Assembly (NCBI RefSeq): GCF_000497045.1
Contig: NW_015961988.1
Span: 186,001-250,000, forward strand
Direction of reading: 5' to 3'
Origin: Kalmanozyma brasiliensis GHG001
Lineage: Eukaryota > Basidiomycota > Ustilaginomycetes > Ustilaginales
Length of the DNA: 64,000 nt
Shown: piece by piece, positions 31,201-60,972 of the stretch
How positions within the stretch are numbered: the stretch's first letter is position 1
Layout: every line of letters starts with the position of its first letter
The notes under the pieces: model-generated
Told to the model about the DNA's origin: nothing
Databases searched by the model: none
Seen by the model: the letters and a program-made list of their open reading frames with translations, nothing else
Translations under genes and position numbers: made by a program

Positions 31201-32443
31201 CGGACCAATTTCCAGATTGAGAATGTGACATCTGTGGCTTGGATGTGACGGCGAATTGAGGCTTGCGACCGGCAAAGCCGAGACCGTTGATCCATGCCAC
31301 CTTGAGAGCCCTGGTGAGACGCTCTGCGACCCACCAGGCGAGCGGAATGTACATCCACTGTGCGAGCGGAGGGTGATGGAGCATGGCGGTGATGATGAAG
31401 CCGGCAACGGTGACGACATGCGCAATGTAGAACCACTCGTAGAAGCGATTTCGAATGGGACCGATGGAGAGGACGATCATAGCCGTGAGGAAGCCGTACG
31501 AGACCCATCCCCAGCGGAACTTGGTCCACATAAAGACAAAAGTCCAGACTGGCTCGCCGATGCGCGTGTCGACATTGAGCTGAATGCACCAGGTGACGAG
31601 ATGGGCGGTGCCGAAAAGCCAGATGATCCTGCCGCCCCACTTGTGCAAGAAGGAAAGTCGATCGAAGCCGTAGCCGCCAAAGAAGCGCGTCGAGAGCAGC
31701 GCAAAGGGCACCTGCTTGAGCGCCATGATGAGGACGATGGGCACGAGACCCATGGTGATGTCGCCGGTACGGTCGCCCGAAGTCCACCAAGTGCGATAGG
31801 GCAAGGTGCGGTAGGGCGGATAGGTCGAGACGGAAGGGTACGAGCCCTGGCCCCATTGGACTCGCTTGTGCAGCGTCTGGATCGCGCGGCGAGAGAGGCC
31901 GACCATGTTGGTGGTCTGCGGTGGCCAGCTTTCGGCAAAGTTGAAGACGCCGACGCTGGGACTGATAAAGTCGGCGCCGACCAGCGTCAAGACGATGGGT
32001 ACGGCCAGCATAAAGAAAAGCAGCACGACTCGGCCAAAGCTGGGAAAGGTGAAGATCTGTCGATGTGCTAGGGGTGCATAGGCGCGAACGAAGCCCTTGC
32101 TGTCCTTGGTGATGGGATTGCCGTGGATGTCAACGCGCTTGCCCACCTTGTAGACACGGTTCTTGGTGGCCCATCGTTTCCAGAGGGCGCCAATGTAGGT
32201 TCTTTCGCCGACACCGAGCATGTGGAACGACCCGAGGACGAGGCAGACGGCGATGGTGATGAACCACAAGAGGTAGACGTATCGATAGGAGGTGGCGGGT
32301 AGCATGTGGGCGGTGAAGTAGCCCTGGAGGTATTGGTACTTGAGTTGGTCGGGATCGAAGCAGGAGCCGGAGCAGCCACGGTCCGAGCCCGAGCCTGAGC
32401 CCGGAGTGACGCCGGGCGAATAGCCAGGCGAGTAGGACGACAT
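28247..32443 (-). CDS. Ferric-reductase-like flavocytochrome (FRE family), very large
   Basis: Single exon, 1,398 aa, about twice the usual FRE length. N-terminal transmembrane helices lead into the ferric-reductase domain (about 230-365). Its two helices carry heme-ligand histidine pairs at the canonical 14-residue spacing: H267/H281 (LHKWGG... GTAHLVTW) and H342/H356 (AHVV... AMLHH). A Q/H/S-rich insert of about 330 residues precedes the FAD-binding domain (LRTPNKMSWKPGQWVYLNMP; HPFT near 757). The NADPH domain has IVIICGGSGVSFGMSVLEHL near 883 and VAGCGP near 1351, but is split by another disordered insert (about 970-1310). The predicted reaction is NADPH-dependent reduction of Fe(III) or another metal chelate across a membrane. 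There is no EF-hand, so it is not a Nox5-like oxidase. The true substrate is unknown. Confidence 0.87.
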   Translation of the reverse strand: MSSYSPGYSPGVTPGSGSGSDRGCSGSCFDPDQLKYQYLQGYFTAHMLPATSYRYVYLLWFITIAVCLVLGSFHMLGVGERTYIGALWKRWATKNRVYKVGKRVDIHGNPITKDSKGFVRAYAPLAHRQIFTFPSFGRVVLLFFMLAVPIVLTLVGADFISPSVGVFNFAESWPPQTTNMVGLSRRAIQTLHKRVQWGQGSYPSVSTYPPYRTLPYRTWWTSGDRTGDITMGLVPIVLIMALKQVPFALLSTRFFGGYGFDRLSFLHKWGGRIIWLFGTAHLVTWCIQLNVDTRIGEPVWTFVFMWTKFRWGWVSYGFLTAMIVLSIGPIRNRFYEWFYIAHVVTVAGFIITAMLHHPPLAQWMYIPLAWWVAERLTRALKVAWINGLGFAGRKPQFAVTSKPQMSHSQSGNWSEGSQRYMQRPTPPPPHHQQQQQHLQQRPAYYSESFGPQHQQQHQHQQFVPQQQHFISRPHQNGSQHQQMGQDRGDGFYHPADRPPTTLDGSTRGDRTDVSSASSFKYPPQSSRSSENEHTLIGSLADNESRKRSSPPMHDDSFGKQFTTIGAAHPLEEPSESSPERKSMPLERRVTRLSARYDPVNDLLEDYIPSSQPSNADFYPPPPIEALPPLPQQYARHSGADVKYSLQDSFDSAQQQPLSVPGSTYPPLSGRSRNDSSAALAARPSTMFSVMSGSMPRQLRPRPAMSADVAAVIRPGFAFVQLLPGKTLRLTLRTPNKMSWKPGQWVYLNMPNVRFWESHPFTIASAHDADFPVATQFVDADTEKGLAHAQKAKGEERTMVLLVRCRHGFTRQLWNFVAKKRQMQIQAAADAHQGASMYGMPGTAMVPTLGKDTTGVHIRAIVDGPYGSSDRTHWGIHSSIVIICGGSGVSFGMSVLEHLCACMVGAVTLGKGGKGGKKFLTQRVRFVWIVREFSHLQWVAAALRRCIEMVPPEQLQVDLYVTHFNHHSALPQGPRSGSAGGRSHTFSTYKSDVNEYSHHGAPGSISGTTSSADVYSNAARFTEGPEQEEYDITAYDLTHFDGEDQSAPTAVEEEMNKRIRNEGKLRRAKTRRNTVKRKGGRGAKQANVELNRDEQAMEAQRAMYEERHGLRKPQQPYEPEQRPSDGPSLSSRARSHLGAPNYSRPQYAAEQDLADSREGGGRMYGGDGFGGHAWSPEQRDPYRHQGQGAAGDRRHLSPPNSAGLAMPHSPPGSGLGPLSAFASPSPSRPGSANNDLVPPPPFGSASRASTPRMSPSPLGTPYGSEYPLRNSFLDADETDTISRQKAGSSTLNLLNTAVAPAPSPKSPMDDAPIDLDAEEDLDLRVVAELAQPGHPKLDRIIRQEVDRSQGRTLVAGCGPKSLDVVLRSIVSKQIDPTKVRKGDTRGIVNVVSECFEWGG

Positions 32444-54213: not shown

Positions 54214-55752
54214 CTGGCTGTCCGGGAAAATGAAATTGCCATGCCGCATATGAAATGACTTCATTTCGTACCACACCTCTGAACCATGTTTCTGCATCAC
54301 CATCCACTCGACTCGCTGTACATTAGATAGACATCTTGCATCATACCACACATTCGAAAGGATCGCTGAGCTGTATGTCTGGACTGTGACTGCGGTGTAC
54401 GGGGTGCTGAACGAATGAGCGGAGACGCCCTTTTTGTTTAACAGAAATACCGCGGGTTGGAGTGGGAGCTCAGCTGTCAACCAGCGCCAGCGGCGCGAAA
54501 ATACGCCGAGTTCGTCATCGTGCGGCGGCTCTGTCAAGGCCTCAACAGGCATATCACAATGTACAGCCTTCCTCAAGTCTTGTCCACGTTGCGAGGACGT
54601 GCGTCGCAGGCGGCAACGTGTCACGTTATCCGATCAAGTCAGTCGGGAGTCGGGAAGGAGAGCTCGTCTGTGTTACGCGAGAACGAGCTAAAAGGGTAGG
54701 CCGCAGCTTATTCCTAGCCGAGGTGATGGAACCCTGGTTCGCTTGAGCGGCCGTGTTGCACGTTCTGCGTCTTGCTTGACCGCTCAGCACGTCGGGCGGG
54801 GCGCAGGATAATCATGCTCGGCGAGCGCATACGGCGACCAGCTGCATTTGACGTCCACATCGATCAGCAAGCACCAATGGACCCGTCTGCGAAGGGTGTC
54901 CTGTTCATCAAAGGGACCAGCATCCTGGGAGCTTTGCTTTGCGGAAAAAGATTTGCGAGCGGATGCAGATCCTCCGACTTCCAAAAGTGGCTTTGATAGT
55001 GTGAGCCGCGCTGTGACGCACAAGGCCCACGCCATTGTCAAACAACATTGAAAGGCCGACCTCGCCGCGGCGTAAGCGGCTCGGGATTGATACTTCCGCC
55101 ATCGCAACCGACGGCAACGGCGTCGCCCACTCCGACCACCGTAGCCCCCCTTCTTCCGCCTGCTTGGACCCGACTACACGTTGAGACGATGCTAGTCCAC
55201 GTTTGCGAGCCGCCTCAGAGGTCACACCGACAAGTCGGGTCACAGAGCTTGGTACTGGCTCTCCACTGCCGCCCTGTGAACGTGGATCTCGCTGCAACCG
55301 TATACAGCGTGGGGTAGCGAGACACACGAACAAGGTTTCGCCCCTCGCTTGCCTTCCGCAACAATGCCACATCCTCCTTCCGCCGTTGGTCAGCGTCGCG
55401 GTCGGCTGAACGAAAGAGTGCGCCTCGCTTGATCGCCAAACACTAGCGCATCCGTCTCCCGACGTTTCGGTGAACACCGATGAGAAGAAATGATGCCCAC
55501 AATAGCAACAGCGAGAGTGAGCTGGCATGGGTGCACAGACGATAGCAGAAGAAACAAGGACCCAATAGCGGACGTGCATGGAGCAACATTGCGGAGCGTG
55601 AGACTGAGAAGCATTTAGCAGAGATTCACAAAGCTTTGAGCGGATGACTACATCGAGACGAGAAACTATAAGTACGGACATTCTAGGACATCTGTCCCCT
55701 TCGTTCGACAGCAACAAAGTCTTCTCTCCCCACACACAATCAAGCACTCACG
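54214..55752. other. Intergenic, lysozyme promoter region
   Basis: 1.5 kb between the MFS stop and the lysozyme start. A 279-codon minus-strand frame (54908-55747) is present but has no ATG-led domain and overlaps the lysozyme promoter; I regard it as chance. A TATA-like element lies at 55667. Confidence 0.55.
55667..55673 (+). promoter_or_regulatory. TATA-like element of lysozyme gene
   Basis: TATAAGT, 86 bp before the ATG at 55753. The following 80 bp are A/C-rich with the start preceded by CACTCACG. Motif match only. Confidence 0.5.
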
Positions 55753-56676
55753 ATGAAGTTCTCCATCGCCACCCTCGTCGGCGCTGTCGCCGCCCTTGCC
55801 GCTTGCACCCAGGCCGCTCCTCTCGAGAAGCGCGTCTCTGGCGTCCCCGGTTTCGACATCTGTAGGTGACACACTCCCAAAGCAGCCCTTTATCCCTTCG
55901 CCCTCGTGCTGACCTTTCATCTCGCTGATTGCTCCTCCACAGCGCGCTACCAGTCCAACGTGGACTTCAACCAAGCCAAGGCAAACGGCGCTCGCTTCGT
56001 CATCATCAAGGCCACCGAAGGCACCACCGTCAAGTCGTCCGCCTTCTCCTCCCAGTATACCGGTGCAACCAACGCTGGTCTCATCCGCGGGGCCTATCAT
56101 TTTGCGGTTCGCATCCATAAAGACTGTAAATGACTTTCCAGGCTCTCATACTGACAGATGACTTTGCATTAACAGCGACCTGACTCCTCCGGCGGTGCCG
56201 CGCAGGCCAACTTCTTCCTGAACAACGGAGGTGGCTGGTCGTCCGATGGCCGCACTCTTCCTGGTATGCTCGACCTTGAGTCGTCCAGCGGTGTTGCTAC
56301 CTGCTACGGTCTTTCCCGCAGCCAGCTCGTCAGCTGGATCTCCGACTTCGGCGAGACCTACCGCTCGTCTACCGGACGCTACCCGATGGTGAGTCACTTA
56401 GTTCAGCTCGAGGTAGAAGATGAGTACCTGTACTGACATCGTGTGTATCGTTTGCAGATCTACACGAACTCCGGCTGGTGGAACCAGTGCGTTGCGTCGA
56501 GCGCCTTCGCCAGCAACTACCCCTTAGTCGTGGCGAGCTACTCCAGCAGCCCCAAGATCCCTACCGGCTTCAGCACGTACAGCTTCTGGCAGTACGCTGA
56601 CAGTGGTACCTACCCCGGCGACCAGGACACCTGGAACGGCAACCTGGACAACCTCCAGAAGTTCGCTAGCGGCTAA
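55753..56676 (+). CDS. Secreted GH25 lysozyme
   Basis: Four exons (55753-55861, 55943-56106, 56176-56388, 56458-56676) give 234 aa. Introns are 81, 69 and 69 bp. The pre-region is a signal peptide ending near residue 21, followed by a Kex2 site Leu-Glu-Lys-Arg (24-27), so the mature enzyme starts near Val28. The GH25 fold shows the catalytic acid cluster: D35 in GFDISRYQ, D124 and E126 in GMLDLES. Family stretches include FVIIKATEGTTV, GAYHFARPDSSGG and FWQYAD. GH25 enzymes cleave the beta-1,4 bond between MurNAc and GlcNAc in bacterial peptidoglycan. A GH25 protein of the related smut yeast Moesziomyces is known to antagonise the oomycete Albugo, so an inter-microbial role is plausible. Intron 2 has an unusual GTTCGC donor. 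Confidence 0.93.
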
Positions 56677-59568: not shown

Positions 59569-60033
59569 CGTGGGTGTATCGATTGTCTATGTAGGTTCTG
59601 TTTGCGAGCTGAATGCCCTGTCTTGGAGGTTGGTGGCTCTGATGAAGGGGGTAGCAGGGCTTCTCGGAGATGACGAGCCAAGACTCCTTGGAGAGAGAGG
59701 TTATCGGAACGCCAAAATAAGAAACGCTTGTTGGTTGGCTGTGCTGCACCTTGGCAAGCCAAAAATTCCAGCTCAGCCAGCCGGCCCATTTCACACACGC
59801 GCTCGCAGGCTGTAGAGTGAGATCATATGCTGACCCTGACCGGAAGTCGGCAAGCCCCCCTTTTTCACGCTGACGACCTTTCAGACTCGAAAAGTCCGTC
59901 TCGCTGCACGCCTTTTCGTAGCCCAGCCTGCGCAGCGTGCGTGTTGCCTCGAGACAGGCTCTGCAAGCGCAGCGATCCACGGGCCCAGGAAGTATATATT
60001 CCTCAGGCGTTCCCGCATCCCACTTCTTCGCAA
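59569..60033. promoter_or_regulatory. Divergent promoter region J-protein / U2 snRNA
   Basis: 465 bp between the J-protein ATG and the inferred U2 transcription start. No coding frame with a domain. The right end carries the U2 TATA box at 59993. Confidence 0.5.
59993..60000 (+). promoter_or_regulatory. TATA box of the U2 snRNA gene
   Basis: TATATATT sits 34-41 bp before the inferred U2 5' end at 60034, the right spacing for a TATA-driven Pol II snRNA promoter. Confidence 0.65.
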
Positions 60034-60287
60034 ATTACTCTTCTGGCCTATTGTAAGTGTACCCCCAAGCACTCGCAACACACGCTTTCAGCTCGTCTCA
60101 GTTTGCTGACCGCATTCGCATTCTCTCCTCTCTGCGATCTTCACACCATACAGGGCTTAGATCATGTGTAGTATCTGTTCTAAATAGATTGACATCTATT
60201 TCTCCTCGCTCCGGCGAGGATTTTTTTGTCATACACTTTTTCCTAGCGGGAGATCACCGTTCAGGTGCTTGCACCTCGGGATCTCGA
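60034..60287 (+). ncRNA. U2 spliceosomal snRNA, interrupted by an intron
   Basis: Exon 1 is 60034-60052 and exon 2 starts at 60154; the mature RNA is about 153 nt. Joined, the 5' end reads through GGCCTATT|GGCTTAGATCA into the branch-site recognition sequence GTGTAGTA (60166-60173), followed by TCTGTTCT, all hallmarks of U2 and close to S. pombe U2. Stem IIa is AAATAGA/TCTATTT (60182-60201), stem IIb CCTCGC/GCGAGG (60204-60219), and the Sm site ATTTTTTTG (60220-60228). The 3' hairpin GAGATC...AGGTGC-TT-GCACCT...GATCTC (60250-60285) corresponds to stem-loop IV. U2 pairs with the intron branch site and with U6. The 3' end is estimated from the last stem. The 5' end is set by alignment and by the TATA spacing. 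Confidence 0.9.
60053..60153 (+). other. mRNA-type intron inside the U2 snRNA gene
   Basis: 101 bp beginning GTAAGT and ending CATACAG, with a CTGAC branch-site candidate at 60106-60110 and a pyrimidine-rich tract after it. Removing it restores the conserved U2 5' sequence, while the unspliced DNA breaks it just upstream of the U2/U6 pairing and branch-recognition region. Confidence 0.85.
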
Positions 60288-60972
60288 GGATGTCCTTGGC
60301 CCTACACTTCTGCCTTGAGACGTCCGCCGTCCTCTCTTTTTTCAATGATATGTATTACGTAATCGAGTGTCATGCGACCGAGCACCCAGCCAGCCGAGTG
60401 AGGTGTGGATTTTCGCTGAGTTCGCTGAGCCAAACAGAAGCAGAAGTGGAAATGATTTTAAAGAAAAGTGCAGTCTTCGGTCAAAAAAGGCCGAAGAAAA
60501 GGAGGATGCAAAAAGACGCGGCTGAGCAGTCCCACCAAGCCCCCGCTTTGACCGCCTGACGCAGTCTCCTGATCGATCCCACATACATGCTCGCGGCAGC
60601 GACATCATCCAGCATCGAGTGGCACTACCGCCTGCACACATACTCATCTTGGTATACGAGGAAGAAGGAGCCGACAAGCACATCACAGGCAAGGCGAAGC
60701 GGAAGACCTACACAACTAACATTCTTTCAATTGGCAGACCAACACTCAAGACGCGCTGTTGTGATTGTCGCGTCGAAAAAGTCACCGCGCAGCAGCAGCA
60801 AACAAAGTCACACTCCGCCAATCACCAGAGTAATCACACACGACCTCGCTAGCCAGGCAACTTAATTTCGCAGTCGAGCCCCGCAGCTCTACATTCTTTC
60901 CGCACCCCATCGACGTCCGCTCTTCTCCTCCACCATCTCAAGGCCACTTCTCGCCATACCCGCAATCGCACG
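60288..60972. other. Spacer U2 snRNA / PIF1
   Basis: About 680 bp. No further snRNA or tRNA signature was recognised. Two partial ACGCG motifs (60751, and CGCGT at 60769) lie upstream of PIF1 and resemble MluI-box cores, but neither is complete. The last 130 bp before 60973 are C-rich, as expected for a leader. Confidence 0.5.

Follow-up and report, generated by a model that had tools for sequence, protein, structure and literature searches.

Single detectable U2 gene of a smut genome very probably split by a U2-type spliceosomal intron

Introduction

In 1993, Takahashi and colleagues reportedly found that the U2 gene of the basidiomycete yeast Rhodotorula hasegawae, which we take to be the same organism as Erythrobasidium hasegawianum, carries an mRNA-type intron within a conserved part of its sequence. 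This intron is said to be 60 bp long and to lie immediately downstream of the branch-recognition sequence. An mRNA-type intron is also described near the catalytic nucleotides of the U6 gene of Schizosaccharomyces pombe in PMC10484740 and PMC8917221, and the former source further names RNA polymerase III as the enzyme that makes U6. PMC2586383 cites Takahashi et al. 1993 (Mol Cell Biol 13:5613) and mentions introns in noncoding RNA genes in passing. Among the matches listed from the open-licence literature, none described an intron in the U2 gene of a smut.

The present analysis concerns a U2 gene located in a window of 64 kb, which is the whole stretch of DNA that was analysed. Coordinates refer to this window unless stated otherwise, and all features described for the U2 gene lie on its + strand. 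An earlier note on this DNA had claimed that a spliceosomal intron interrupts the gene. Judging from its sequence, the single detectable U2 gene of this smut genome is very probably interrupted by a U2-type spliceosomal intron of 101 bp between positions 18 and 19, and the claim is supported by the register that puts position 19 at 60154, by the restored stem I, by a complement of U6 in the upstream exon, and by splice signals of the mRNA type.

Results

The U2 family RF00004 was the sole Rfam family to reach its gathering score in the 64-kb window, with a match at 60123–60332 (+) that scored 114.3 bits versus a gathering score of 46. From 60155 onward, the register of this uncut alignment corresponds to model position 20 onward. 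Model positions 1–18 are placed in sequence that we assign to the intron, with a 13-base insertion in the loop of stem I. If the sequence is cut at 60154, model positions 19–192 are aligned with 109.1 bits; the start at 60154 is imposed by the cut, and the register is identical to that of the uncut match. Exon 2 would therefore occupy 60154–60332 (model positions 19–192), with a 3' end that probably falls at 60325–60332. The gene end of 60287 given in the earlier note is too short, as the gene reaches about 60325–60332 and extends through stem IV. The sequences quoted in that note were verified at their positions by reading of the DNA, and it is here that GGCCTATT ends at 60052 and GGCTTAGATCA begins at 60154.

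Only one U2 gene was detected by the covariance model in the 17,269,742 bases and 26 contigs of the assembly, with 45 of the 96 first-look candidates scored. Its branch-recognition motif GTAGTA is contained in the conserved 16-mer GTGTAGTATCTGTTCT (60166–60181), which has exactly one occurrence in the genome, and none of the six places that differ from this 16-mer by two mismatches was a U2 gene by cmscan with E-values up to 1. The earlier note had left room for a second, intronless copy of U2, and none was detected in the assembly. Viral contigs gave no match to the U2 core. Eukaryotic U2 genes were also observed in bacterial MAG contigs, namely in four stretches (L012, L013, L014, and L015) on three contigs; L012 and L014 additionally carry U1, and L012 also has histone and 5S elements. 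The presence of eukaryotic U2 genes in bacterial MAGs is probably due to contamination.

Most of the elements of a U2 RNA can be located in exon 2. The helix I strand GCTTAGATCA, which is expected to pair with U6, is found at 60155–60164 by sequence match to RF00004, and its GCT presumably pairs with the AGC of U6 in helix I. The branch-recognition sequence GTGTAGTA follows at 60166–60173 in the RF00004 alignment. At 60165, just 5' of the branch-recognition sequence, U2 position 30 is T/U where the consensus has A (GATCATGTGTAGTA). Stem-loop IIa is placed at 60182–60201 by the RF00004 alignment, with pair limits drawn by eye, and is absent from the minimum-energy fold of the joined RNA, in which the same stretch pairs otherwise. 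Stem-loop IIb (60203–60220, pair limits likewise by eye), stem-loop III with GCTTGC (60248–60287), and stem-loop IV (60288–60325, past the interval of the earlier note) are found both in the RF00004 alignment and in the fold of the joined RNA. Two runs of T are candidates for the Sm site: one, ATTTTTTTG at 60220–60228, was recognized by reading of the sequence, and the other lies at about 60236–60243, near which the RF00004 model aligns the Sm site.

Exon 1 (60034–60052, model positions 1–18) would provide the 5' end of U2 with the 5' strand and loop of stem I, and its start base is estimated to within 1 base on either side. The 18 bases ending at 60052 match RF00004 consensus positions 1–18 at 10 of 18 positions with GGCC-TATT-GGC in register, and U2 spacing is unchanged when exon 1 is joined to 60154 onward. 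Exon 1 is short, and the mismatches are mostly located in its first 10 positions, which fit the consensus poorly. To express the chance rate, a background of 264 kb was used on both strands, consisting of the window and 200 kb from four contigs. With the true site included in each count, at least 10 of 18 matches were reached at 136 of 28,740 GT sites, and at 2 of 28,740 when a GTRAGT donor was required as well. A TATA-like element, TATATATT (59993–60000), is positioned 41 bases before the inferred U2 start and may function as such; the U4 gene (L004) of the same genome, read by eye, is without an element of this type.

A decoy was encountered at 59900–59918, in the upstream region of a DnaJ-type gene, where 18 bases followed by GT at 59918 give 11 of 18 consensus matches; a cruder score on the 13 printed consensus letters gives 8 for the decoy versus 6 for exon 1. 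The donor at 59918 was rejected because it reads GTAGCC, because the implied intron would include the TATA-like element, and because its longest complement to U6 is only 4 bases.

Two uninterrupted U6 candidates are present on the − strand of C12, at 31853–31962 (L002) and 60192–60301 (L003), and neither reaches the Rfam gathering score, although their E-values are 1.9e-7 and 7.2e-7. The 8 bases of CTCTTCTG in exon 1 (60038–60045) are perfectly complementary to CAGAAGAG in both U6 copies and are the candidate U2 strand of U2/U6 helix II, with a duplex energy of −15.1 kcal/mol that is the same for L002 and L003. Both copies read CTCAGAAGAGACG downstream of the internal stem-loop, and the pairing site corresponds to the location of U2/U6 helix II in other eukaryotes. 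When 19-mers taken every 7 bases were compared with a 37-nt region of L002, at least 8 complementary bases were reached by 486 of 75,322. Complementarity to the U6 of this very genome is not expected of a chance match to the consensus, and exon 1 is thereby supported. With regard to the U6 copies themselves, the internal stem-loops of L002 and L003 differ by one compensatory pair as judged by eye. The 5' end of U4 (L004) is complementary to both U6 copies, and U4 and U6 therefore appear to have diverged together.

The predicted intron (60053–60153) is located between U18 and G19, where the loop of stem I meets its 3' strand, and thus has the helix II strand on one side and the helix I strand on the other. 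Its 5' splice site GTAAGT (60053–60058) is a donor common to mRNA introns of this genome, its putative branch-site sequence GCTGAC (60105–60110) has its branch A at 60109, at a distance of 45 nt from the intron end, and its 3' splice site ATACAG (60148–60153) provides the first AG past the branch site. The GT-AG ends, the extended donor, the branch distance, and the use of the first AG are those of a U2-type intron. Introns with the full signals, consisting of GTAAGT, CTGAC, and the first YAG, number 13 in 264 kb, with lengths of 74–190 bp and the U2 intron included, versus 5 in a control with the donor reversed, 1 with the branch sequence reversed, and 6 with the donor GTTCGT. The intron signals alone thus have a noticeable chance rate and do not constitute proof. 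No similar copy of the U2 intron was found elsewhere in the genome with 60040–60167 as the query, and a repeated or recently copied intron was rejected on this ground.

Introns of protein genes in the same genome were surveyed in 264 kb for comparison, with the donor filtered as GTRNG and the branch site as CTRAY, and eight introns were obtained. CTGAC is present in all eight, at 22–53 nt before the intron end, under selection for CTRAY, and GTAAGT is the donor in four of the eight, under selection for GTRNG. The trend persists in weaker form if just one of the two motifs is required: CTRAC is found in 6 of 12 candidates under the donor filter only, and GTAAGT is the commonest donor, with 4 of 13, under the branch filter only. 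Seven of the eight introns join a recognisable protein when continuity is judged by eye. Pfam matches extend across the joins in five stretches covering six introns, which belong to cytochrome c (two introns), GH25 (two stretches), Cdc48, and a Sybindin-family gene. In the case of the first GH25 intron, the Pfam match begins only a few residues before the join. A survey based on coding signal only returned 27 candidates (CTRAY in 9 and GTAAGT in 2) that were mostly noise by eye, and the motif-guided survey was used instead for this reason. The glycosyl hydrolase family 25 gene is located at about 55750–56676 (+), and its two introns, 55862–55942 and 56389–56457, both contain CTGAC.

In the predicted fold of the joined RNA (60034–60052 plus 60154 onward), stem I is formed, with a z of −3.90. 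Stem I is absent from the predicted fold of the unspliced RNA, in which stems III and IV remain, with a z of −4.09. Since the unspliced RNA folds as well in comparison with shuffled sequences, the argument is drawn from stem I and not from global stability. The earlier note had also claimed that intron retention would destroy stem I and the U6-pairing region. This part of the claim stands insofar as stem I is broken and the helix II strand is separated, whereas the helix I and branch-pairing strands are left intact in exon 2.

Discussion

An alternative explanation is that the 5' end of this U2 is divergent, with transcription starting inside the apparent intron near 60123 and no splicing at all. 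In its favor, the covariance model aligns positions 1–18 to 60123–60153 with a pseudo-stem, and the uncut sequence scores 114.3 bits versus 109.1 for exon 2 alone. However, this arrangement requires 13 inserted bases in the loop of stem I, and without excision the contiguous ungapped sequence matches RF00004 positions 1–18 at 1 of 18 positions. Its longest complement to the 3' region of U6 is 5 contiguous bases, and the TATA-like element at 59993 would be situated about 130 bases upstream of the start. We therefore regard a start within the apparent intron as very improbable. With the gene split by an intron, Rfam-based annotation misplaces the U2 5' end at this locus, at 60123 instead of about 60034.

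It could also be argued that the locus is a dying or dead U2 gene with an intron-like insertion, and that a normal intronless U2 resides in unassembled sequence. The alteration of U2 position 30 would agree with decay, and U1 and U5 were not found either, so that gaps in the assembly or in the search are possible. Nevertheless, the alignment of stems IIa, IIb, III, and IV contains only two non-standard pairs despite divergence from the consensus, exon 1 complements the genome's own U6, and the 17.27 Mb in 26 contigs contain no second detectable U2; a dead locus is in our opinion extremely improbable. An intron that is real but optional, with spliced and unspliced U2 both functioning, appears quite unlikely to us. 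Exon 2 alone holds model positions 19–192, including the helix I and branch-pairing strands, and some yeasts can do without U2/U6 helix II. Against this, the predicted fold of the unspliced RNA is without stem I, and a 101-nt insert separates its two U6-pairing strands.

If the U2 gene is split by a spliceosomal intron, as we favor, transcription by RNA polymerase II would begin at about 60034 and yield a capped precursor. Spliceosomes already present, with their mature U2, would recognize the donor, pair with GCTGAC, and excise the intron. Only in the joined RNA would stem I form and the helix II strand have its normal spacing from the helix I strand. Because the spliceosomes that carry out this splicing contain mature U2, new U2 would depend on old U2. 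It is conceivable that unspliced or 5'-truncated U2 is weakly active, as exon 2 contains both the helix I strand and the branch-pairing strand, and weak activity of such U2, if true, would soften the bootstrap problem.

An intron in the sole detectable copy of an essential spliceosomal RNA would make the splicing machine dependent on what it produces itself, and would allow the idea that snRNAs limit their own supply to be tested in a fungus. The predicted intron lies one base before the GCU of U2 that is expected to pair with the AGC of U6, and its position is a data point for the proposed entry of snRNA introns through reverse splicing close to the catalytic centre. It is possible, although we consider it doubtful, that the intron represents an independent reverse splicing event into the U2 catalytic core and that splicing of U2 by U2 serves as a feedback that limits spliceosome number.

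Searches of the assembly for U1 and U5 with covariance models and conserved patterns found neither gene, an empty result that is not equivalent to absence. Two candidates, L038 and L016, were rejected on reading. The undetected U1 and U5 genes may be diverged or interrupted by introns. If U1 and U5 are also interrupted, the smut lineage would join the cases in which introns have invaded spliceosomal RNA genes.

Rhodotorula hasegawae, which the earlier note had invoked as a precedent, is one for the kind of intron and not for its position. As reported for R. hasegawae, a basidiomycete yeast, the predicted intron is of the mRNA type and falls in a conserved region of U2; however, the intron of R. 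hasegawae is said to be 60 bp and to follow the branch-recognition sequence, whereas the intron described here is 101 bp and lies between U18 and G19. R. hasegawae belongs to Pucciniomycotina, whereas the present genome is placed near Ustilaginaceae, in Ustilaginomycotina. The neighbouring DnaJ-type protein has 92% identity to a protein of Sporisorium reilianum and 90% identity to one of Ustilago loliicola, which puts the genome within Ustilaginaceae or next to it, as a relative of grass smuts. The U2 locus is flanked by this DnaJ-type gene and by a helicase-like gene.

The U6 gene of Schizosaccharomyces pombe resembles the smut U2 gene in that an mRNA-type intron is present in the gene of a spliceosomal RNA. 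The S. pombe intron is nonetheless found in U6, whereas both U6 copies of the present genome are uninterrupted. A resemblance in signals is also seen to the mRNA introns of the genome itself, which have GTAAGT as their commonest donor, a CTGAC branch sequence, a YAG acceptor, and a similar length, but which are hosted by protein-coding genes. We rate the smut U2 intron as a new case of a known, very rare kind, situated at a different position in U2.
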